The notes below the pieces were generated by a model. The model was not told the origin of the DNA and did no database searches. It worked only from the letters and a program-made list of their open reading frames with translations. The position numbers and the translations under genes are program-made. Shown one piece after another: positions 1-10,804 of a stretch of 10,804 nucleotides of DNA (position 1 is the stretch's first letter; every line of letters begins with the position of its first letter). The stretch covers positions 1 to 10,804 of the forward strand of contig JAGQUI010000054.1 in NCBI GenBank assembly GCA_020438595.1, in the 5' to 3' direction. The DNA is from Propionibacteriaceae bacterium. GTDB lineage: Bacteria; Actinomycetota; Actinomycetes; Propionibacteriales; Propionibacteriaceae.

Positions 1-451
1 ACTCTCCGGCAGGTTCGGCGTGGTCCCGCTGCCGGCCTTCGGCGACAGCGCCAGAACGGCGGCGAACGGCGGCTCCAACCTCGCCGTGCCCGCCCAGGCC
101 AAGAACCCCACGCTGGCCGCCGACTTCGCCGCCTGGGTGCTGGCGGATCCCACGAACCAGGCGTCCATGATGGAGAACGAGGGCCTGTTCCCCTCCTATC
201 TGCCCGCGCTGAGCGAGCCCATCTTCACCGAATCGTCGGAGTACTTCGGCGGCCAGAAGGTGTACGAGTTGTTCGCCGAGCAGACCGGGAAGATCCCGCC
301 CGTGAACTACACCAGCGATGCGGCGAAGGCGTCCGACATCGTCGGCAACGCGGTGGTGGCCGCGGTGCTCAACGGGAAGGATCCGAAGGCCGTCCTCGAC
401 GACGCGGCCCAACAGATCGCGACCGCGACGGGTCGGCAGATCGCCGGCTGA
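1..451 (+). CDS. Sugar ABC transporter extracellular solute-binding protein, C-terminal part (5' end outside window)
   Basis: This is the last ~149 residues of a family 1 extracellular solute-binding protein, the lipoprotein that captures a sugar or oligosaccharide outside the membrane and delivers it to the permeases encoded directly downstream. The reading frame is open from base 2 and ends with TGA at 449-451, so the start, signal peptide and lipobox lie outside. Visible family traits are the block GSNLAVPAQAKNP followed by AADFAAWVLADP (the usual 'ignore-fatigue, group moves with the body' C-lobe region of this family) and a helical C-terminal segment with VLNGKDPKAVLDDAAQQI. The stop shares one base with the next start (TGATG), which indicates translational coupling. 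Family assignment rests on these motifs and on the two permeases. The substrate cannot be read from this fragment. Confidence 0.85.
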   Translation, partial: LSGRFGVVPLPAFGDSARTAANGGSNLAVPAQAKNPTLAADFAAWVLADPTNQASMMENEGLFPSYLPALSEPIFTESSEYFGGQKVYELFAEQTGKIPPVNYTSDAAKASDIVGNAVVAAVLNGKDPKAVLDDAAQQIATATGRQIAG

Positions 452-1386
452 TGCCCCTCCCGACAGCGCGAGCCGGTGCCCCGGTGCGGTCCTCGACCCG
501 CCTGGGACGCCGGCTCGCGCGGCCGGGCCTGTGGTTCTCGCTGCCGGCGCTGGCGCTGTTCGGGTTGTTCTTCGCCTACCCGCTGGTCGCCTCGCTGCTG
601 CAGAGCTTCTACACCACCAAGGGAGGCGTCACCCGCCCCGTCGGAATGGCGAACTACGTCAGGCTCACCGAGGATCCCCTGGTCGCGCAGAGCCTCGTCA
701 ACGCGCTGATCATCCTGGTCGTCCAGGTGCCCCTGATGATCGGGCTCGCGTTGGGCATCGCCTACGTGCTCAACCAGTCGTGGCTGCGACTGCGCACCGG
801 ATTCCGGCTGGCCTACTTCCTGCCCGCCGTGACCACGCTGGTGGCCTACTCGGTCGTGTTCCGGGTGATGCTCGCCACGGACGGGGGCCTGGTCAACCAG
901 CTGCTCGGCATGGTCGGCATCCCTCCGGTGGACTGGCTGAACAACGAGATCTGGGCGAAGGTCGCCGTGATCGCGTCCATCACCTGGCGCTGGACCGGGT
1001 ACAACATGGTGATCATCCTGGCCGGCCTGCAGGCCATCCCGGCCGAGCAGTACGAGGCCGCCCGGGTCGACGGAGCGGGACGCTGGGCCACGTTCTCGCG
1101 GGTGGTGGTGCCACAACTGAAGGCAGTGCTGGTGTTCACCACGGTGACCTCCACCATCGGTGCGCTCCAACTGTTCGACGAGAACTACATCCTCACCGGC
1201 GGCGGCCCGAACAACGCGACCCTGACTCCGGTGCTCTACCTCTACAAGGTCGCGTTCCGGCAGTTCGACTTCGGCTACGCCTCGGCGATCGCCTGGTTGC
1301 TGGTCGTGATCATCACCATCGCCTCGGCGCTGCAGTTCTGGTTCACGCGCGAACGTGAGCCGCGACGGCGGAAGGCCCGGCGATGA
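451..1386 (+). CDS. Sugar ABC transporter permease, MalF/UgpA type
   Basis: Inner-membrane permease of a carbohydrate-uptake (CUT1-type) ABC importer, 311 residues, the usual length for this family. A basic N-terminus (residues 15-25, RSSTRLGRRLARP) precedes the first membrane helix at about 28-50. Further helices lie near 80-107, 118-140, 170-193, 225-245 and 275-297. The EAA loop that docks on the ATPase is clear at about 201-222: YEAARVDGAG followed by WATFSRVVVPQLK. The start ATG overlaps the stop of the binding-protein gene, and its own stop overlaps the next gene (ATGA). No good Shine-Dalgarno sequence precedes the ATG, so coupled translation is likely. It should form a heterodimer with the following permease. 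Substrate is undetermined; a sugar, oligosaccharide or glycerol-phosphate is possible. Confidence 0.92.
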   Translation: MPLPTARAGAPVRSSTRLGRRLARPGLWFSLPALALFGLFFAYPLVASLLQSFYTTKGGVTRPVGMANYVRLTEDPLVAQSLVNALIILVVQVPLMIGLALGIAYVLNQSWLRLRTGFRLAYFLPAVTTLVAYSVVFRVMLATDGGLVNQLLGMVGIPPVDWLNNEIWAKVAVIASITWRWTGYNMVIILAGLQAIPAEQYEAARVDGAGRWATFSRVVVPQLKAVLVFTTVTSTIGALQLFDENYILTGGGPNNATLTPVLYLYKVAFRQFDFGYASAIAWLLVVIITIASALQFWFTREREPRRRKARR

Positions 1387-2204
1387 AGCGCACCGCGACG
1401 CTGACCCTCCTGTATGTCGCCATGGCGGTCGGCGCGGCGGCAAGCCTGTTGCCCTTCTGGTGGATGGCGATCGCATCGACCCACACCACGTCCGAGCTGT
1501 TCGCCACGCCGCTGCCGTGGCTGCCCGGGAACCAGTTCATGGAGAACCTGGCCCGGCTCCAGCAGAGCACGGACTTCGCGCGGGTGATGGTCAACTCGCT
1601 CGGCATCGCGGTGGTCTACACGTTCTTCAGCACACTGGTGTCGGCAATGGCCGGCTACGGACTCGCCAAGTTCCGGTTCCGCGGACGCGGGGTGCTGCTC
1701 GGCCTGGTACTGCTCACCATGATGATCCCGATGCAGGTGCTGCTGGTTCCGCTGTTCCAGATGATGTCCAGCGTCGGCTGGATCGACACCTACCAGGCGG
1801 TGATTCTGCCGTTCCTGGCCAACGCGTTCGGGATCTTCCTGATGCGCCAGGCATTCCTGGACTTCCCGGATTCACTGGTGGAGGCCGCGCGCATCGATGG
1901 TGCCGGCGAACTGCGCACCTTCTACCGTGTCGTCATGCCCGTTGCGCTGCCCCAGTTGGCGGCGTTGGTGATCTACACGTTCATGAGCCAGTGGAACGCC
2001 TTCATCTGGCCCCTGCTGATGCTGAACACGGAATCCAACTACACGGTGCCACTCGCGCTGAACCGCATGATCGGCCTCACCCGCGTCGACTACTCGGGGC
2101 TGATGCTCGGGTCACTCCTCGCCACCCTCCCCCTACTACTGGTGTTCCTGTTCTTCCAGAAGCAGTTCATCGCAGGGCTCCTGGGGGGCGCGGTCAAGGG
2201 GTAA
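1383..2204 (+). CDS. Sugar ABC transporter permease, MalG/UgpE type
   Basis: Second inner-membrane permease of the same CUT1-type importer, 273 residues, typical for MalG-like proteins. The first helix is at about 8-31, followed by an external loop with the conserved start of the permease core near NSLGIAVVYTFFSTL (71-85). The EAA loop is at about 166-191: VEAARIDGAG then LRTFYRVVMPVALPQL. The C-terminus ends with a helix (242-258) and the QKQFIAGLLGGAVKG tail common in this family. A good ribosome site (GGAAGG, about 7 bases upstream) precedes ATG 1383, which overlaps the previous stop. No ATP-binding subunit follows; the operon ends here with TAA and a gene-free stretch. Such systems often share a general MsmK/UgpC-like ATPase encoded elsewhere, which is an inference for this genome. 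Confidence 0.93.
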   Translation: MKRTATLTLLYVAMAVGAAASLLPFWWMAIASTHTTSELFATPLPWLPGNQFMENLARLQQSTDFARVMVNSLGIAVVYTFFSTLVSAMAGYGLAKFRFRGRGVLLGLVLLTMMIPMQVLLVPLFQMMSSVGWIDTYQAVILPFLANAFGIFLMRQAFLDFPDSLVEAARIDGAGELRTFYRVVMPVALPQLAALVIYTFMSQWNAFIWPLLMLNTESNYTVPLALNRMIGLTRVDYSGLMLGSLLATLPLLLVFLFFQKQFIAGLLGGAVKG

Positions 2205-2816: not shown

Positions 2817-3119
2817 TCAGCCGGCGTGGCGCGGACCCGCCTCCCTGGTGATCCGCAGGCGCCATTCATCCGGCCCCTCCTGGAGGTACTCGACGCCGAT
2901 CGGGAAACGCTCCGACAGCTGGCCAAGGAGTGGCAGCGGGTTGTGTGGGGCGACCAGGACCAGCGAGCCGCCGGCCGGGATCGCGTCGAACGCGCCGAAC
3001 ACGCTGGCGTGCCGGATGGCGTGGGGGATGGTGCGTACGTCCAGCACGATGTCCTCCTCGTCGTGGTGTCCGCAGGTGCAGCCGCCGGAGCGGGTGTCCA
3101 GCTGGATCGGATTGGTCAT
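2817..3119 (-). CDS. DUF2249 domain protein (small Cys/His-containing protein of the nitrite operon)
   Basis: Small soluble protein of 100 residues. The DUF2249 core spans about 25-92: it begins with LDVRTIPHAIRHASVFGAFD, then GSLVLVAPHNPLPLLGQL, and ends EYLQEGPDEWRLRITR, matching the family's usual order of conserved blocks. Upstream of the core, residues 14-23 form CTCGHHDEED, a possible metal- or heme-binding patch. The start at 3119 is chosen because AAGGAG sits about 5 bases upstream. A longer frame reaching 3353 would run into the nitrite reductase gene and has no family match. DUF2249 proteins are commonly found near hemerythrins and nitrogen-oxide enzymes; their function is not settled. 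As last gene of the operon it is likely co-transcribed with nirK, 58 bases upstream. A role in NO or metal handling is inference. Confidence 0.82.
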   Translation of the reverse strand: MTNPIQLDTRSGGCTCGHHDEEDIVLDVRTIPHAIRHASVFGAFDAIPAGGSLVLVAPHNPLPLLGQLSERFPIGVEYLQEGPDEWRLRITREAGPRHAG

Positions 3120-3177: not shown

Positions 3178-5820
3178 TCAGGGTGACACCTGGATGTCGC
3201 CGTGGGCGCCTCGTTCGGCGTCGGCCATGACGTGGGAGACGAACGGATAGCGTCCGGCTTCGGTGAACACGGTTTCGACGAACCCGCCCTGCGCGGGCTG
3301 CAGGCCGAGTGCCTGTGATCCACCGGTGCGGTCGCCGAAGGGGTCCCGGCCACGCTTGAGCTGGTAGGCGCCCTCGCTGAAGGTGGTGTCGAACTGTGCT
3401 CCCACGATGTGGAAGCTGGTGGCCCGGTTCGGGCCTGCGTCGAGTACCCAGAAGCGCACCCGCTCGCCCACGCGCGCTGTCAGTGGGGCGTTGTCGTAGC
3501 CGTTGGCCACCCCGTTGAACACGACGTGGTCGGGCTCGCCCGCGCCGGTCGCGCGGTCGGCGTCCACCTCGGTCGCGGACGCCGCGTCCGTAGCAGGAGT
3601 CTGCAGGTAGACCTCGGACTGGACCAGGACGTAGGAGCGGTCGACCTTCGGCAACCCAGGCGGTTCGATCACGACCGCCCCGGCCATGCCGGCGGCGATG
3701 TGGGCGCTCATCGGCGCGGTGGAGCAGTGGTACATCCAGATGCCCGCCCTGGCCGCGACGAATCGGTAGGTGAGGTTCTGGCCGGGCTCGATCGTCCGCA
3801 TCGGGACTGAGGGGGCCAGTTCTCCGGCGTGGAAGTCGATCGAGTGGCCCATCGAGCCGTGGTTGACGAGGGTGATCACGAAGGTGTCGCCCACCCGGCC
3901 GTGAAGGGTCGGCCCGACCGGCGAGCCGTTGTAGGTCCAGCGTTTCTGCCAGACTCCGGGGGCCACTTCCAGCGGCACCTCCTGGACGGTCAGGGTGAGG
4001 CGGTGCACCCGTTCGTCGGTCAGCGGCGCCAGCTCGGGATCGACGGTGTCGGTCGGGGGCGTCGACCGGGCCTGATCACCCGCGCCGCCCATCTCATGCT
4101 CGCTCATCGGCGCGGGGGTTGCTCCGGTGGCTGGTGGTGCGCCGTCCACGACGATGTTGAGGACCATTCCCATCTGCCGGTGGCCCGCCACCGAGCAGAA
4201 GCCCTGTTCGGAGGTCCCGATCAGTCCCGCGTCGAGTTCAGCCTGCGCCCCCGGTGCGATCCGTGCGGTGCGGACGTCGCCGATCACGAGGTCATGGGTA
4301 GTGGTGTCGGCGTTGGTCAGATGGACGACCAGGTGGTCGCCACTGTCGAGGTGGATCTCGGCGGGGATGAAGCGCATGTCCTTCGCGGTGACCTCGATCC
4401 TCACCACGCGGCCCGTCGGCCGCACGGCTGCCGCGGCCGCCGGGACGCCCGCCAGCCCGGCGGCGGAGGGATCCAGCCCAACCCCTACGACCACAGCCGT
4501 GGCCACTGCAGTGAGGCCGGCGACCAACTGGCCGGCGGTGAAGATGTTCGGACGCTCCACCGGGGCAACCGGCGGGCCGGGAGCGGTCGCCTCCGCGTCC
4601 CGTCCGGCGAGCAGGTCGCGCCGCGCAGCAACGCTCGCTCGCACCCCGAGGACCATGAGCGGGAGGAAGCTTGCCGCGGCAAGGAGGGCGAGTGCCGAGC
4701 CCGTCACCCGCACCCAGCTCGGCGTCGGCAGCAGCCACAGCGCCAGCCCGCCGTTGGTCGCGATCAGCCGGAACCCGCCGGCCCGGTTGAACCAGGCCTG
4801 ACCGGCCCGCACCACGCTCGGCCCTCCGCCGAGCACCGACGGAAGCAGGTAGGACAGGGCGCCGATCAGCACCTGCCCGGCGAAACCTGCGCCGAGAACG
4901 GCGGCCGGCCAGATGAAACTCTCCTCCACCGCGTCCCACTCGGACGTTGCGAGTAGCCAGCCCGCCCAGGCGAGGCCGACGACCAGCCAGGCCAGGCCGG
5001 CGGCGACCGAGGCGGGCCCGAACTCCCGCGGGGGCCTGGTGCGCGCGGGACGGACGAGGCCTCTGCCCCACACGGCGAGGCCGAGGACGTAGCCGGCCAC
5101 GCCGACCGCCGAGAGCCAGCCGAGCCCGGCGAGCGCGCCCGCGTCTGCGACCAGAATCGAGCCGCCCAGGATGGGGAGGGCCTGACGGGTCCAGAGTTCC
5201 GCGGTGGCGTCCATGGGGGTGCGGAGCATGGTCGGCCAGAGGGTGAGCAGGGTCCCGGTGACGGTCAGACCCACCCAGCCGAGCACGTTGGTGAGGGCGT
5301 GGGCGGCGAGGAGGCGCCCGTGCCACGGGTCGGGCCAGCCCCACGCGAGCGTCACGCCGAACCCTGCGCCGACGACCAGCGCCGCGGCGGCCCAAAGGTA
5401 GTAGCGGACGCTGACCCGGAACCGCGCCGGCAGCGCGCGGCGGAGCATGCCGAGCAGGACGAGGCCGTGCCAGCCGACCGCGCCGGCCACGACGAGGCCT
5501 CCGGCAAGGGTGAGCGGCCACCAGGTCGTGGGCACGCCCACCAGGACCGCAACGGCGCCGGTGGTGAGCAGTCCGAGGCGCCGGTTGTGCCAGCGGGCCT
5601 GCTGCTCGGACACGGGCGTGCGCAGCAGCGTCTGGGCGAAATGGAAGCTCCAGACCAGGACGGAGTGGGTCACCGCACCGAGCAGGACCAGGTGCAGCAT
5701 CAGCCAGTTCGCGTCCGGCAGCCACCGGTGACCAAGGGCGACGAGCGCGGCGGTACCGAGCCAGCCGAGCAGCGGCAGGTCACGCAGCTTCGACCTGCCC
5801 CGGGTGGTGGAACGGCTCAT
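3178..5820 (-). CDS. nirK: Copper-containing nitrite reductase fused to a membrane domain and a cupredoxin
   Basis: Reduces nitrite to nitric oxide on the outer face of the membrane. The 880-residue protein has three parts. Residues 1-450 are a polytopic membrane domain (about 12 hydrophobic segments), with His at 43, 52, 60, 118, 167 and 174. Residues 470-560 are a cupredoxin with a full type 1 copper set (H509, C542, H547, M552, spacing C-x4-H-x4-M). Residues 598-880 are a two-domain NirK. All NirK copper ligands are visible: type 1 H659, C699, H707, M712; type 2 H664, H698, H863; catalytic D662 and H804. Ordinary NirK is about 340-380 residues, so 500 residues are extra. The start at 5820 is set by the 4-base overlap (ATGA) with the upstream gene; the open frame continues to 5973 but only through that gene. 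A Met/His linker (PAPMSEHEMGG, 569-579) joins cupredoxin and NirK. The inferred electron path is membrane domain, cupredoxin, type 1 Cu, type 2 Cu. NirK function is near certain; the donor is not known. Confidence 0.93.
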   Translation of the reverse strand: MSRSTTRGRSKLRDLPLLGWLGTAALVALGHRWLPDANWLMLHLVLLGAVTHSVLVWSFHFAQTLLRTPVSEQQARWHNRRLGLLTTGAVAVLVGVPTTWWPLTLAGGLVVAGAVGWHGLVLLGMLRRALPARFRVSVRYYLWAAAALVVGAGFGVTLAWGWPDPWHGRLLAAHALTNVLGWVGLTVTGTLLTLWPTMLRTPMDATAELWTRQALPILGGSILVADAGALAGLGWLSAVGVAGYVLGLAVWGRGLVRPARTRPPREFGPASVAAGLAWLVVGLAWAGWLLATSEWDAVEESFIWPAAVLGAGFAGQVLIGALSYLLPSVLGGGPSVVRAGQAWFNRAGGFRLIATNGGLALWLLPTPSWVRVTGSALALLAAASFLPLMVLGVRASVAARRDLLAGRDAEATAPGPPVAPVERPNIFTAGQLVAGLTAVATAVVVGVGLDPSAAGLAGVPAAAAAVRPTGRVVRIEVTAKDMRFIPAEIHLDSGDHLVVHLTNADTTTHDLVIGDVRTARIAPGAQAELDAGLIGTSEQGFCSVAGHRQMGMVLNIVVDGAPPATGATPAPMSEHEMGGAGDQARSTPPTDTVDPELAPLTDERVHRLTLTVQEVPLEVAPGVWQKRWTYNGSPVGPTLHGRVGDTFVITLVNHGSMGHSIDFHAGELAPSVPMRTIEPGQNLTYRFVAARAGIWMYHCSTAPMSAHIAAGMAGAVVIEPPGLPKVDRSYVLVQSEVYLQTPATDAASATEVDADRATGAGEPDHVVFNGVANGYDNAPLTARVGERVRFWVLDAGPNRATSFHIVGAQFDTTFSEGAYQLKRGRDPFGDRTGGSQALGLQPAQGGFVETVFTEAGRYPFVSHVMADAERGAHGDIQVSP

Positions 5821-6929
5821 CGGCGCACCACCAACACGAACGCCGTGACCATGAAGCCGAGCATCGCGAGCACGGTGAGGACGCCGCCGACCTGCCACAG
5901 CACGGTCGCGCCGGTGAGCGCGCCACCGAACCGGGCGGCCAGGCCGGCCTGCAGCAGCACCAGGGGCGCCCACAGTGCAGGCCGGTACGGCAGAGGACGG
6001 CCGAGCACGGCCGGCAGGATGACCGGAGCGTGCGCCATCACCATGGAGACGCCGAAGCCGAGGAACACCCCGTGCACGACGACGTCGTAGGTCCCCGGGT
6101 CGGCCAGCAGGCCGACGGCAGCGAGTACACCGCCGGCGAGCGCAAGGTTGGCGTAGCCAGCCAGCAGCGCGCCAGCGAGGTAGCGTCGCTGGCCGGCGAG
6201 CCCGAGCTGGCGCCGCACGACGTCGTGGGCCACGAGCCAGCCGGCGACCGCCAGCAAGGACAGCCCGACCAGCCTCTCCCCGCCCGCCGGCGCGAGGAGG
6301 GCGGCGAGGATGGCCAGGGTCAGCACTGAGGCGAGGGCGAGCAGCTGCCGATCAGCCACGTCCCCCATGGTCAGAGCGGCCAGTTCGGCGCGCTCGGCCG
6401 CGATCGTGACCACCACGAACCCGGCCAGCCAGGGCAGTGCGTGGGGGACGTCGACCGTGGCGGCCACCACCGCTCCCCCGAGCGCCAGGACGGCGGAGAG
6501 CACCTGCGCCGCGACGAGCGGACGGGGCGCCCTGCGCCACAGCGCCACATAGACCGCGACGAACAGCACCCCTGCCTCGACCTGCAGAAGCTGCCCCACA
6601 AGGGCGGGCGCCGGGCTGACCAGGGCCAGCGCGCCCACCCCGTACAGGCCGGGCGCGAGGTAGGCCCAGGCCCGGCCAAGTGACTGCGCACGCTCCAGCG
6701 AGATCAGCGTGGCCAGAAAGCCGAGCACCATCACCTGTCCGTGCACATCGCCCAACCGGGACGAGGCCACCGGTGCCCAGACTCCGAGCCGCACCAGGGC
6801 CGCGTCGAGACCCGCGAGCAGGGCACTCCCGCCGAGGGCCACCAGGAGCACACGACCCCGGGCGGCCCTGCGGCGGGCCCCGCCCGCCACGGAGGGGACG
6901 GTGGCGGCGAGCGGCACGGCCGGCCTCAC
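5817..6929 (-). CDS. Polytopic membrane protein, NnrS-like / heme-copper-protein-like
   Basis: Integral membrane protein of 370 residues with about 10-12 hydrophobic segments and short loops. Candidate metal or heme ligands lie within helices: H63 in DVHGQVMVLGFLATLISLER, H286 and H300 in the block from VVHGVFLGFGVSMVMAH to APVILPAVLG, plus H163 and H235. The His-Gly helix start followed by GF and a C-terminal 'HAPVILPAVLG' block resembles NnrS, a heme- and copper-containing membrane protein of denitrifiers that relieves NO stress. The resemblance is remembered family pattern, not an alignment. The GTG start overlaps the hemerythrin stop and its own stop overlaps the nirK start, so the product is made in step with both. 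It could supply electrons or heme-bound NO handling to the fused NirK, whose membrane domain looks related. The exact start is uncertain because the ribosome site is weak. Confidence 0.72.
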   Translation of the reverse strand: MRPAVPLAATVPSVAGGARRRAARGRVLLVALGGSALLAGLDAALVRLGVWAPVASSRLGDVHGQVMVLGFLATLISLERAQSLGRAWAYLAPGLYGVGALALVSPAPALVGQLLQVEAGVLFVAVYVALWRRAPRPLVAAQVLSAVLALGGAVVAATVDVPHALPWLAGFVVVTIAAERAELAALTMGDVADRQLLALASVLTLAILAALLAPAGGERLVGLSLLAVAGWLVAHDVVRRQLGLAGQRRYLAGALLAGYANLALAGGVLAAVGLLADPGTYDVVVHGVFLGFGVSMVMAHAPVILPAVLGRPLPYRPALWAPLVLLQAGLAARFGGALTGATVLWQVGGVLTVLAMLGFMVTAFVLVVRR

Positions 6930-7477
6930 CTCTGGAGTGCGGCGCAGAGGGTCGGATCGGCCGTGCCGCGACTGTGGTCCGCCTCAGCGGCGGAAGGGGC
7001 GTGGGCGCCGTCGTGGGAGTGGACGTGGGGCTGGCCGCCGTCGTGGGAGTGCGGGGTGGTGTCGTGCACCTCCACCCAATCGGGGCCGTCGAGGGCGATC
7101 GCGGCGGCGGGGAACAGCCCGTTGTCCTCCTTGTCGATGTGGGCTCGCAGCGCGTCCTCGAAACGGGCCATCGCCGTCGCGTCGCCCGGCGCGAGTTCGC
7201 CCAGCAACGTGGCAAGGGTCTCGTGCTCGCCGCACAGCGTGGCGATGTGGTCGGCGTAGACCTCGTCGCGAGCCATCACTCGGAAGAGCCCGGCTTCCTC
7301 GGCGACCGTGTGTGGCCACAGCAGGTCCGATACCGCGACCCGGGCAGCGTCGAGTCGCCCCGCGCCCCCGGAGCGGACGGCGGCGCGCAGCTCACCGGTC
7401 GCGTTGATGATCTCCACGTGCTCGGACATGAAGCGTCCGATCACCTCGATCGAGTCGCATCCGCAGTAGCTGCACAT
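6926..7477 (-). CDS. Hemerythrin-like diiron protein with Cys-rich head and His-rich tail
   Basis: Probably a cytoplasmic non-heme diiron protein that binds O2 or NO. The 183 residues contain a hemerythrin four-helix bundle at about 10-125 with the expected ligands: H20, H56 and E60 (HTVAEE), H85 (GEHE), H113 and E117 (HIDKED). Before it lies a CxxCxC motif (MCSYCGC), and after it a His/Asp-rich tail (HSHDGGQP, then HVHSHDGAHAP, about 143-161) likely to bind further metal. ATG 7477 is preceded by AAGGAA at suitable spacing, and the next ATG upstream is out of frame. It is the first gene of the nitrite operon and lies divergent from a regulator, so its promoter is in the 54-base A/T-rich gap. 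Hemerythrins in denitrification loci are associated with NO or O2 sensing and iron-sulfur repair; which applies here is inference. Confidence 0.88.
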   Translation of the reverse strand: MCSYCGCDSIEVIGRFMSEHVEIINATGELRAAVRSGGAGRLDAARVAVSDLLWPHTVAEEAGLFRVMARDEVYADHIATLCGEHETLATLLGELAPGDATAMARFEDALRAHIDKEDNGLFPAAAIALDGPDWVEVHDTTPHSHDGGQPHVHSHDGAHAPSAAEADHSRGTADPTLCAALQR

Positions 7478-7531: not shown

Positions 7532-8167
7532 ATGCGCACCTCAGCAAGGCTCGGGCCCGACCCGATCCGCACCGACCGGCCGCGGGACGCGGGCCTTCGC
7601 GTGCTGCGTGCGCTGGCCTCCCGGGAGTCGGCGACGCTCGCCGACCTCGCAGATGCCCTCGGCGGCCACCCGAACACCACCCGTGCCCAGCTCGAGCACC
7701 TGGTCGCCGCGGGGTTCGCCACCGCGCTGGACCTGCCCGCCTCCGGACGTGGACGACCGGCACACGCCTGGGCCGCGACGATCGCCGGGCGCCAGGTCGC
7801 CGGCGAGGACCCCAACCTGGACCGCCAGGCGGCCCTCCTCGAAGCCGTCGCCGAGCACCTCGACGGCACTCCGGACCCGGCCGCGGCCGCGCACGCGATC
7901 GGCCTCGGGTGGGGACACCGGCTGGCCGCGACCCGGAACGACAGCCTCGTCCCGATCCTGGCCGCCCAGGGCTTCACCCCCGAGGAACAGGACGACGGCA
8001 TCGCTCTGCGCACCTGCCCCCTGCTGGCCTCGGCCCGGCAGCGTCCCGCGGTCGTGTGCGGCATCCACCAGGGCCTGATCGACGCCGTCTCCCCCGCGGC
8101 CTGGGCACTCGAACCGTTCGCGGCCCCGGGCGCATGCCTGCTCCGCCGCCGTGGGGGTGCAGCGTGA
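7532..8167 (+). CDS. Winged-helix transcriptional regulator with C-terminal Cys/His cluster
   Basis: Likely DNA-binding regulator of the divergent nitrite operon, 211 residues. An N-terminal winged helix-turn-helix spans about 18-80: LRVLRALASRESATLADLAD, recognition helix near HPNTTRAQLEHLVAAG, wing near SGRGRPAHAW. The C-terminal half carries C162, C176, H179 and C202 (C-x13-C-x2-H, then C near the end). This recalls SufR-type and related regulators of ArsR/MarR-like build, in which Cys residues hold an Fe-S cluster that reacts with O2 or NO. Cluster binding here is inference. ATG 7532 is chosen for the first in-frame Met after the operator gap, with a weak GAGTGG site. Its stop overlaps the molybdenum cofactor gene start (GTGA), so both are co-expressed. 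Alternative: a redox- or metal-sensing repressor unrelated to NO. Confidence 0.78.
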   Translation: MRTSARLGPDPIRTDRPRDAGLRVLRALASRESATLADLADALGGHPNTTRAQLEHLVAAGFATALDLPASGRGRPAHAWAATIAGRQVAGEDPNLDRQAALLEAVAEHLDGTPDPAAAAHAIGLGWGHRLAATRNDSLVPILAAQGFTPEEQDDGIALRTCPLLASARQRPAVVCGIHQGLIDAVSPAAWALEPFAAPGACLLRRRGGAA

Positions 8168-8911: not shown

Positions 8912-10315
8912 TCAGGACTTCTTCGGCGCCCCGGGTCGGGCGTAGCGCCACACGGTGATCAGGACGCACATCACGGCCCAGGCCACCCCGATCCAGTAGA
9001 AGGCGGTGGGCGACATGACGGTCAGCCCGACGCCGAAGAGGAACGGGCCGAAGGCGGCGATGGCGCTGGTCCAGCCGATCACACCGCCGGCCTGGCGCCG
9101 CTCGAAGATCATCGGCATCTGCTTGAACGTGGACGCGTTGCCGATGCCGGCGAACAGGAAGATCGCCAGCATGCCCCACAGGAACTGGTTGAACCCGGCC
9201 TGCAGGGTGGCCGCGCTGGACGTGTCGGGGGTGAGCGCGGGGATCGTCCACAGGATCGAGGCGACCAGGCCGACGCCCGAGATCAGCGTCCAGATCGCCC
9301 CGCCCATGCGATCGGTGAGTGGGGAGAACAGGGCCCTCGCGGCAGCCCCGATCAGCGGGCCGAGGAAGACGAAGGCTGCCGGGTCCGGTACCTGGTAGCC
9401 CTGGACGAGGATCTGCGCGGTGGCGCCGGAGCCCTGGACGATGGCGGCGTTGCTGGCCCCGTACAGGTTGGCCATCAGCAGCCCGAACTGGGCGGCGAGA
9501 CCTGAGAAGGTGCCGAAGGTCATGATGTAGAGCAGAGTCATCCACCAGGTGTCCTGGTTGGTGAAGATGTCGAACTGCTGGCGGATGTTCGCCTTGACCG
9601 GTACGGCCTTGAGGTACTGCCAGGCGATCCAGGCGCCGATCAGGATGAACGGCAGCCACACGAAGGACGCGGCCTGGTACCAGACCTCCCGGTCAGGCTT
9701 GCCGGCGATCTTCATCATCTGGCTCTGGCCGAGCCACCACAGCATGCCGAGCCCGATCAGCCACGGGGTGAGCAGCTGGACCAGGGAGACGCCGAAGTTG
9801 CCGATGCCGGCCTGCAGCCCGAGGGCTGTGCCCTGCTTGCGGCGCGGGAAGAAGTAGGAGGTGGAGGGCATGAATCCGGAGAACGCTCCACCGCCGATCC
9901 CGGCGAGGAACGCCAGCGTCAGCAGCTCCCAGTAGGGCGCCGTGGGCGACATCGAGCGGACGCCCCAGCCAAGGACGGGGAAGAAGAGCAGCAGGGTGGT
10001 GGCCGCGACCATCTTGCGTGTCCCCATGATCGGCGGGAGCACCATCCAGACCAGTCGGAGCAGGCCGCCGGAGAGCCCGGGGATGGCGGCGAGCCAGTAC
10101 AGCTGGGTCTTGGTGAAGTCGTAGCCGATCGCGTTCAGCTTGGGCACGATGGCGGAGGGCAGGAACCAGGCGACGAAGGCCAGGGTGAGGGTGAAGGTGG
10201 TGATCCACAGGGTCTGCCAGGCCAGCCGGGAGTCCCAGGTCTCCTCGTTCTCGGGGTCCCAGGACGCCAGCCACTCGGGGCCGCTCTGGAGTCGCTGGAC
10301 GATGCTGCTGGTCAT
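8912..10315 (-). CDS. narK: NarK-type nitrate/nitrite transporter (NarK2-like, MFS)
   Basis: Inner-membrane major facilitator protein that moves nitrate and nitrite, probably as a nitrate/nitrite antiporter. It has 467 residues, close to E. coli NarK in length, with 12 predicted helices. Family marks include the N-terminal WDPEN...W segment (19-27), R87 in GGLLRLVW and R327 in GAAARALFSPLTDR, which align by position with the substrate-binding arginines of E. coli NarK. The nitrate signature AGIGGGAFSGFMPSTSYFFP lies at 138-157, and the second signature region AGIGNASTFKQMPMIF at 389-404. AGGAGG about 7 bases upstream of ATG 10315 is a strong ribosome site, and the ATG overlaps the upstream transporter's stop (ATGA). 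The direction of transport is inferred from family type; it could also import nitrate. Confidence 0.93.
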   Translation of the reverse strand: MTSSIVQRLQSGPEWLASWDPENEETWDSRLAWQTLWITTFTLTLAFVAWFLPSAIVPKLNAIGYDFTKTQLYWLAAIPGLSGGLLRLVWMVLPPIMGTRKMVAATTLLLFFPVLGWGVRSMSPTAPYWELLTLAFLAGIGGGAFSGFMPSTSYFFPRRKQGTALGLQAGIGNFGVSLVQLLTPWLIGLGMLWWLGQSQMMKIAGKPDREVWYQAASFVWLPFILIGAWIAWQYLKAVPVKANIRQQFDIFTNQDTWWMTLLYIMTFGTFSGLAAQFGLLMANLYGASNAAIVQGSGATAQILVQGYQVPDPAAFVFLGPLIGAAARALFSPLTDRMGGAIWTLISGVGLVASILWTIPALTPDTSSAATLQAGFNQFLWGMLAIFLFAGIGNASTFKQMPMIFERRQAGGVIGWTSAIAAFGPFLFGVGLTVMSPTAFYWIGVAWAVMCVLITVWRYARPGAPKKS

Positions 10316-10804
10316 GCGCGGGCCTCCTGCGGGGAACGGGTGTCGACGTGGTCGACGTCGAAGTGGTCGGCGAGTTCGGGGGACTTCTGGTGCAGCATCC
10401 CGACGATGGTGAGGTGCATCCAGATCGCGCAGATCGCGGTCAGGACGAACAGGACGAGGAAGGTGCTGGTCGGGAAGCCGGTCCAGAGCTTGGTGTAGGC
10501 GAACAGCGGCGGCAGGACGAAGCCGCCGAGCCCGCCGAGCATCCCGACCAGGCCACCGACCGAGCCGACGTTGTCCGGGAAGTACTCGGGGATGTGCTTG
10601 TAGACGGCGGCCTTGCCGACCCCCATCGCGCAGCCCAACAGGAACACCAGTGTGGTGAACCCGGCCAGGCCGATGGTGTAGGGCAGGTGCTGGGTCTGGC
10701 TGCCGTCGGCGTGCACGACCACGACGTAGCCGTTGGGCATCATCAGGATGCCTGTGGTGGCGAGCATCACGGCGAACGTGGCGTACATCACCTTGCGGGC
10801 GCCG
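10312..10804 (-). CDS. NarK-type nitrate transporter (NarK1-like), C-terminal part; 5' end outside window
   Basis: The last ~163 residues of a second MFS nitrate transporter. The frame is open to the window edge, with GARKVMYATFAVM read just inside it, so the apparent Met near 10788 is internal. Helical segments include YATFAVMLATTGILMM, IGLAGFTTLVFLLGCAMG, and VGGLVGMLGGLGGFVLPP. The block GKAAVYKHIPEYFPDNVGSV followed by GGLVGMLGGLGGF is characteristic of the NarK1/NasA-like nitrate:proton symporter branch. Its stop overlaps the start of the NarK2-like gene by 4 bases. The tandem of NarK1-like and NarK2-like proteins is the separate-gene version of the fused NarK known from Paracoccus. The missing N-terminus would be needed to confirm the substrate residues. 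Confidence 0.88.
   Translation of the reverse strand, partial: GARKVMYATFAVMLATTGILMMPNGYVVVVHADGSQTQHLPYTIGLAGFTTLVFLLGCAMGVGKAAVYKHIPEYFPDNVGSVGGLVGMLGGLGGFVLPPLFAYTKLWTGFPTSTFLVLFVLTAICAIWMHLTIVGMLHQKSPELADHFDVDHVDTRSPQEARA

Follow-up and report, generated by a model that had tools for sequence, protein, structure and literature searches.

Three-module copper nitrite reductase of a Propionibacteriaceae bacterium and its candidate membrane partner

The window analysed in this study was a stretch of 10,804 nucleotides (contig JAGQUI010000054.1, assembly GCA_020438595.1, Propionibacteriaceae bacterium), in which a gene for a long copper nitrite reductase (NirK, P0001) is located. As shown in Table 1, this gene belongs to a row of four on the minus strand, in the order hemerythrin-domain gene, P0002, NirK, and DUF2249 gene. 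Translation of the NirK gene from the ATG at 5820 gave 880 residues and a stop codon; in a mechanical list of open reading frames, the frame starts at a GTG at 5973, giving 931 aa. The ATG was considered the probable start, because it overlaps the upstream stop codon by 4 nt and because the nearest homologs are much alike in length (880, 883, and 879 aa). The initial annotation, which was made from the sequence of the window, had described the product as a membrane domain, a cupredoxin, and a NirK in one chain, and this was confirmed by the translation, the predicted helices, and the alignment to the NirK of Hyphomicrobium denitrificans (2dv6).

The alignment to 2dv6 extended over residues 450-878 (E 1.8e-44) and comprised the cupredoxin and the catalytic core, whereas a membrane module of this kind is lacking from the 447-aa chain of 2dv6. 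In the cupredoxin, H509 and the site C542-x4-H547-x4-M552 aligned to the N-terminal copper site (CSIAGHRQAGM) of the Hyphomicrobium protein. The core held the type 1 copper positions H659, C699, H707, and M712, the type 2 copper positions H664, H698, and H863, and the catalytic positions D662 and H804, the roles being those given in the NirK literature. Homologs were collected with the query protein (941 matches, the best 120 listed, 116 of these 120 longer than 840 aa), and a set of 70 close kin was made from the query and these 116 by thinning to <85% identity. All 13 ligand and catalytic positions were invariant in it (70/70), so that the complete copper sites claimed at the outset are present and the cupredoxin ligands are kept in close relatives. 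Judged from its type 1 and type 2 ligands with the catalytic Asp and His, the protein is a copper nitrite reductase, and, by the H and the C-x4-H-x4-M site before the core, one of the N-terminal-cupredoxin NirKs of the Hyphomicrobium type. The NirK profile TIGR02376 matched with E 1.4e-44 and 152.8 bits, missing the curated cut-off of 296.3 bits. Since this score was reached by none of 394 Actinomycetia genomes, the cut-off appears to exclude these actinobacterial NirKs as a group. Among seven related loci in named genome contigs, the closest was PHEV01000131 (HGW-Actinobacteria-5), with 97% over the part it covers, residues 1-382.

The three-part architecture is already published. In the accessible passages of PMC4770552 (BMC Genomics 2016), a NirK of ~900 aa with the same module order (a ~400-aa membrane domain, a CX4HX4M cupredoxin, and the NirK core) is reported from Propionibacterium acnes and other Actinobacteria, which agrees with the initial remark that long NirK proteins occur in other actinomycetes. 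Those passages call the membrane domain 'of unknown function' and contain no fold, partner, or conserved His for it; the predicted fold, the two invariant His, and the candidate partner protein described below are what the present analysis adds. Other Nir fusions, including a NirK with cupredoxin and cytochrome but not the present architecture, are described from Chloroflexi in the portion of PMC8756737 at hand. No published fold, partner, or electron route of this NirK was found in a search that covered few subscription papers.

Table 1. Coordinates of the features in the window
Feature	Position	Strand	Evidence
Three-module NirK (P0001), 880 aa	3178..5820	minus	translation, structure and profile matches
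Membrane module of 12 helices (residues 1-405), fold predicted as that of heme-copper oxidase subunit I	4606..5820	minus	structure model
His43 codon, outer end of TM2, invariant 60/60	5692..5694	minus	alignment
His174 codon, outer end of TM6, invariant 60/60	5299..5301	minus	alignment
Thirteenth membrane helix, residues ~429-447, leading out to cupredoxin	4480..4536	minus	structure model, topology
Type 1 copper cupredoxin, residues ~465-558 (H509, C542, H547, M552)	4147..4428	minus	domain match, ligand alignment
NirK catalytic core (residues ~600-880) with the complete type 1 and type 2 copper ligands	3181..4023	minus	structure alignment; TIGR02376
P0002, 370-aa protein with 12 helices, fold predicted as that of heme-copper oxidase subunit I	5817..6929	minus	structure model; 4-nt overlap with NirK start
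Hemerythrin-domain protein	6926..7477	minus	PF01814 E 2.7e-13; 4-nt overlap with P0002
DUF2249 protein, 58 nt after NirK	2817..3119	minus	PF10006 E 3.3e-24
Divergent winged-helix regulator	7532..8167	plus	PF12840 E 1.9e-8
NarK-type nitrate/nitrite transporter	8912..10315	minus	TIGR00886 E 4.2e-66, below curated cut-off

Membrane module and upstream protein

In the structure model of NirK, 12 membrane helices were read within residues 11-410 and one more from residue 429; for this count, 368-383 was merged with 385-410, and the short helix 334-345 was omitted. The N-terminus was set inside, with K or R at 19 of 125 inside loop residues versus 3 of 85 outside ones, and from this bias the cupredoxin and NirK should lie on the outer side of the membrane. 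The first ~405 residues were predicted to adopt the fold of heme-copper oxidase (HCO) subunit I. The initial annotation had asked to which family, NnrS and the HCOs among them, the membrane part belongs; neither Pfam nor NCBIfam returned anything for residues 1-440, and the likeness obtained was the predicted fold. The HCO profile PF00115 matched only one of 61 module sequences, at E 2, and one relative standing alone scored 19.2 bits, under the cut-off of 34.8. TM6 of the module did not exceed shuffled sequences in comparison with NorB and COX1 (209/300 and 59/300).

HCO subunit I binds its metals through six His, one each on TM2 and TM6 and two each on TM7 and TM10. These six were visible in CcoN sequences; of the helices concerned, the module keeps His on TM2 and TM6 only. 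TM7 and TM10 of the window module have no His, and position 324 (TM10) is His in 7 of 60 sequences. Unlike CcoN of the cbb3 oxidase, NorB of cNOR, and COX1, the module thus has neither the TM7 His pair nor the His-x-His of TM10, and it matches no sequence family of theirs. As read from conservation, the six-His pattern of HCO subunit I is absent from the module.

The membrane part had been said to contain several His, and eight are indeed found in residues 1-450, of which H31, H43, H52, H118, and H174 were each conserved in 70 of 70 close homologs. In a wider set of 60, however, only H43 and H174 stayed invariant, so that conserved His do occur in the membrane domain but are two; H118 (TM4) was kept in 55, and H31, H52, H60, and H167 were variable. 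This set consisted of 39 fused and 21 counted unfused sequences after duplicate loci and stretches <330 residues had been dropped; the 21 include two cut by contig ends (L005, L029), one from Phycicoccus (L043), and nine database proteins with neighbours unseen. H43 is the seventh residue of helix 37-66 (TM2) and H174 the ninth of helix 166-199 (TM6), and the two helices have in common a pattern H...LRTP, as would be expected of pseudo-symmetric repeats. No Met or Cys of the module was invariant (6 and 61 sequences), M198 being merely near-invariant in 61.

P0002, encoded directly upstream, belongs to no Pfam family. Its His63 (TM2), His286, and His300 (both TM10) were invariant in 45 of 45 sequences of a wider set, and with invariant His on TM2 and TM10 only it likewise departs from the six-His pattern. 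M67, M296, M298, and H300 were invariant among 61 close homologs, but M298 was not kept in the wider 45. Residues 296-300 form an M-x-M-x-H in TM10, which may be a copper site or a pair of heme ligands. Comparison of P0002 with CcoN, NorB, COX1, and NnrS gave mostly off-register matches, with z 4.4 to 5.2 at best.

Since NnrS (PF05940), a multi-helix membrane protein of nitric oxide (NO) metabolism, accompanies denitrification genes, it was considered as an identity for the module and P0002, and was rejected. PF05940 gave no match for either membrane protein at E 0.1, nor for the 61 module sequences at E 5, and profile comparison with five NnrS (Sinorhizobium and Azospirillum plasmids) gave probabilities of 0.3% for the module, 7.6% for solo modules, and 0.1% for P0002. 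In 20 genomes of the class no NnrS was matched, but control genomes were likewise silent, so that this result carries no weight. NnrS is reportedly among the HCO-related families of Pei and co-workers. In the part of PMC11218638 available, Pei, Li, Kinch and Grishin 2014 (Protein Sci 23:1220), whose title speaks of new families homologous to the HCO superfamily, is cited as linking DUF2249 to that superfamily and as placing HCO relatives in the electron transfer of denitrification. Given that study, the HCO assignment of the module may not be the first.

Distribution and fusions in Actinomycetia

The 394 Actinomycetia genomes were searched for the module at E 1e-5 and for NirK at E 1e-25; since scoring in these searches was confined to 4 or 5 first-look candidates in each genome, absences are soft. 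The module was found in 57 genomes and NirK in 51, both occurring in 48 of the latter. In 45 of the 51 NirK genomes the two adjoined on one strand, with 433-670 nt between the matches, and in 26 of these 45 cases, those whose loci were fetched, one open frame was seen. P0002 was found in 30 of the 51 and lay directly upstream of the module in 22, and the 'self-contained' enzyme of the initial annotation is therefore doubtful.

The fusion partner of NirK was not the same throughout. In one genome (G062), a frame of 899 aa comprises P0002, cupredoxin, and NirK, while the module stands separately on the same contig, near a DUF2249 gene, a hemerythrin-domain gene, narG, and narH. In another (G044), P0002, cupredoxin-NirK, and the module are encoded separately in a 14-kb stretch, narG, narJ, and narI lying between these three genes. 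Because the partner of NirK, module or P0002, differs between genomes, the two HCO-fold proteins and the cupredoxin-NirK behave as parts of one system, the strongest case being the swap in G062 and G044. In the NirK tree, rooted by plasmid NirKs on long branches, G062 and G044 were sisters (100/97) outside the fused clade (97/92), and in three genomes (G114, G153, G175) NirK occurs with neither the module nor P0002, these NirKs nesting inside that clade. These placements fit a history in which separate genes came first, with different fusions later and some losses.

Phycicoccus elongatus Lp2, counted among the 48 with both parts but not among the 45, carries the module (L043, 9386-11002) and the cupredoxin-NirK (L007, 7779-9494) 1.5 Mb apart. 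It was rejected as a natural split and taken for a rearrangement or assembly break, given that the NirK frame offers no possible start until a GTG in the linker that precedes the cupredoxin, and that there are unread bases nearby.

Unfused module copies were seen in seven genomes (L044-L050, from G118, G226, G151, G062, G027, G044, and G015), some beside DUF2249, hemerythrin, and nar genes. In G226, one of these genomes, C62 carries P0002 and a fused NirK, C52 begins with another cupredoxin-NirK that is not fused, and C53 ends with a module that is likewise unfused. G216 (C10, C16) has two NirK genes, one adjoining a module and the other in a 600-aa frame without a module match.

Proposed electron entry and rival explanations

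We tentatively propose, at a little short of an even chance, that this NirK is the catalytic subunit of an actinobacterial membrane-bound nitrite reductase complex, in which one or both HCO-fold parts would draw electrons from the quinol pool and hand them on to the cupredoxin and NirK. In such a complex, the conserved His pairs would bind b-type heme (or copper) close to the outer face, and quinol would be oxidised in the membrane part. The electrons would then pass to the cupredoxin copper, to the type 1 copper of NirK, and on to the type 2 copper, where nitrite would be reduced to NO outside the membrane. The layout resembles that of an oxidase, in that a subunit I fold is followed by a helix and a type 1 copper cupredoxin like those of oxidase subunit II, with NirK replacing the oxygen chemistry.

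In HCO subunit I, the low-spin heme occupies the pore between TM2 and TM10, and the TM2/TM6 pore is empty. On this geometry, a more specific and rather unlikely version places a heme in the TM2/TM10 pore of P0002 and another in the TM2/TM6 pore of the module. The complex would then act as a quinol:nitrite oxidoreductase whose electron entry consists of two HCO subunit I proteins, catalytically dead and reused to serve NirK, and HCO subunit I would be a general redox scaffold with three pseudo-symmetric pores variously filled.

Several observations weigh against the proposed complex. Foldseek returned no match for the models of the module and P0002 at E <=0.001, comparison by hhalign of the module or its solo copies with HCO profiles reached only 0.1 to 12.9% (best for solo modules versus CcoN), and TM2 of the module did not exceed shuffles against CcoN (69/300); the sequence profiles thus leave homology of the module to the HCOs unestablished. 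P0002 resembles HCO subunit I in its predicted fold only, and the cofactor binding, the quinol site, and the electron distances are putative. Moreover, 18 of the 48 genomes having NirK and module yielded no P0002, and 3 of the 30 P0002 genomes (G013, G155, G373) hold fragments only, so that P0002 is not obligatory. Since the three module-less NirKs fall inside the fused clade, neither protein is indispensable to the enzyme. Conversely, 9 of the 57 module genomes have no NirK match at E 1e-25. Finally, according to the accessible passages of PMC4770552, the cupredoxin is not required for NirK function.

An unlikely explanation, but one to be taken seriously, is that the HCO-fold module is merely a membrane anchor or assembly platform, and that an ordinary cytochrome c or cupredoxin, whether diffusible or in the membrane, supplies the electrons. 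The module-less NirKs, the loss of the oxidase His on TM7 and TM10, and the dispensable cupredoxin of PMC4770552 would all suit an anchor; however, an anchor would have no need of H43 and H174, which are invariant whether the module is fused or not, or of another 12-helix protein that is fused alternately.

It is improbable that the module, instead of being an electron entry, binds or passes on toxic NO or relieves nitrosative stress, as is thought of NnrS. The hemerythrin and DUF2249 neighbours, the unfused module of G062 in its setting of DUF2249, hemerythrin, and nar genes, and the module genomes lacking a NirK match speak for such a role, as does the statement in the consulted part of PMC1274295 that NnrS is a core member of NO-responsive regulons; the lack of a Pfam match and the low profile probabilities for NnrS speak against it.

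Quite improbable is a function of the module and P0002 in delivering or inserting copper for the two copper domains, with the conserved His as copper relays. The kept His do lie at outer helix ends, on the same side as the copper domains, and the M67, M296, M298, and H300 of P0002 could be a copper-binding set. Nevertheless, this fold belongs to heme carriers, neither Met nor Cys is invariant in the module, and three NirK genomes do without both proteins. Anchoring, NO handling, or copper delivery may apply in place of the proposed electron entry. An artefact, that is, a chance fusion by assembly or a mis-set start, is practically negligible, for it is refuted by the adjoining pairs in 45 of 51 genomes and by the lengths of the 116 of 120 listed homologs, only Phycicoccus elongatus differing without a clear biological reason.

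The observation behind the initial annotation is confirmed, and its interpretation as a whole is partly supported. Now that the membrane part has a predicted fold, a pair of invariant His, and a candidate partner, the electron feed of NirK can be tested by spectroscopy and point changes. A heme in the third pore of the oxidase fold, if true, would add to how oxidases evolved. According to the consulted part of PMC10999283, a single clade, prevalent in every biome surveyed except geysers, takes in the majority of Actinobacteriota NirK, and the main text of that paper does not contain the word 'transmembrane'; because of this prevalence, the route of the electrons matters for the release of NO from soils.

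Neighbouring genes and minor observations

Relatives of the divergent regulator adjoin many of the related loci, and a MoaB-type gene lies on the same side, on the plus strand, in the stretch from 7532. As for DUF2249, the available passages of PMC6282519 propose DrpA and DrpB, the latter with DUF2249 domains, as nitrate sensors in Thermus. Two NarK-type genes lie at 8912-10791 on the minus strand and overlap by 4 nt (10312-10315), and a similar pair was seen in L005. A 494-aa frame of another genome (L067 1384-2865, G014:C4) matched COX1 PF00115 at E 1.5e-26 and had no His-x-His in its TM10-like stretch, and is apparently another ligand-poor oxidase relative. At the other end of the window, two sugar-type ABC transporter permeases (451-2204, plus strand) are apparently unrelated to the nitrite genes.
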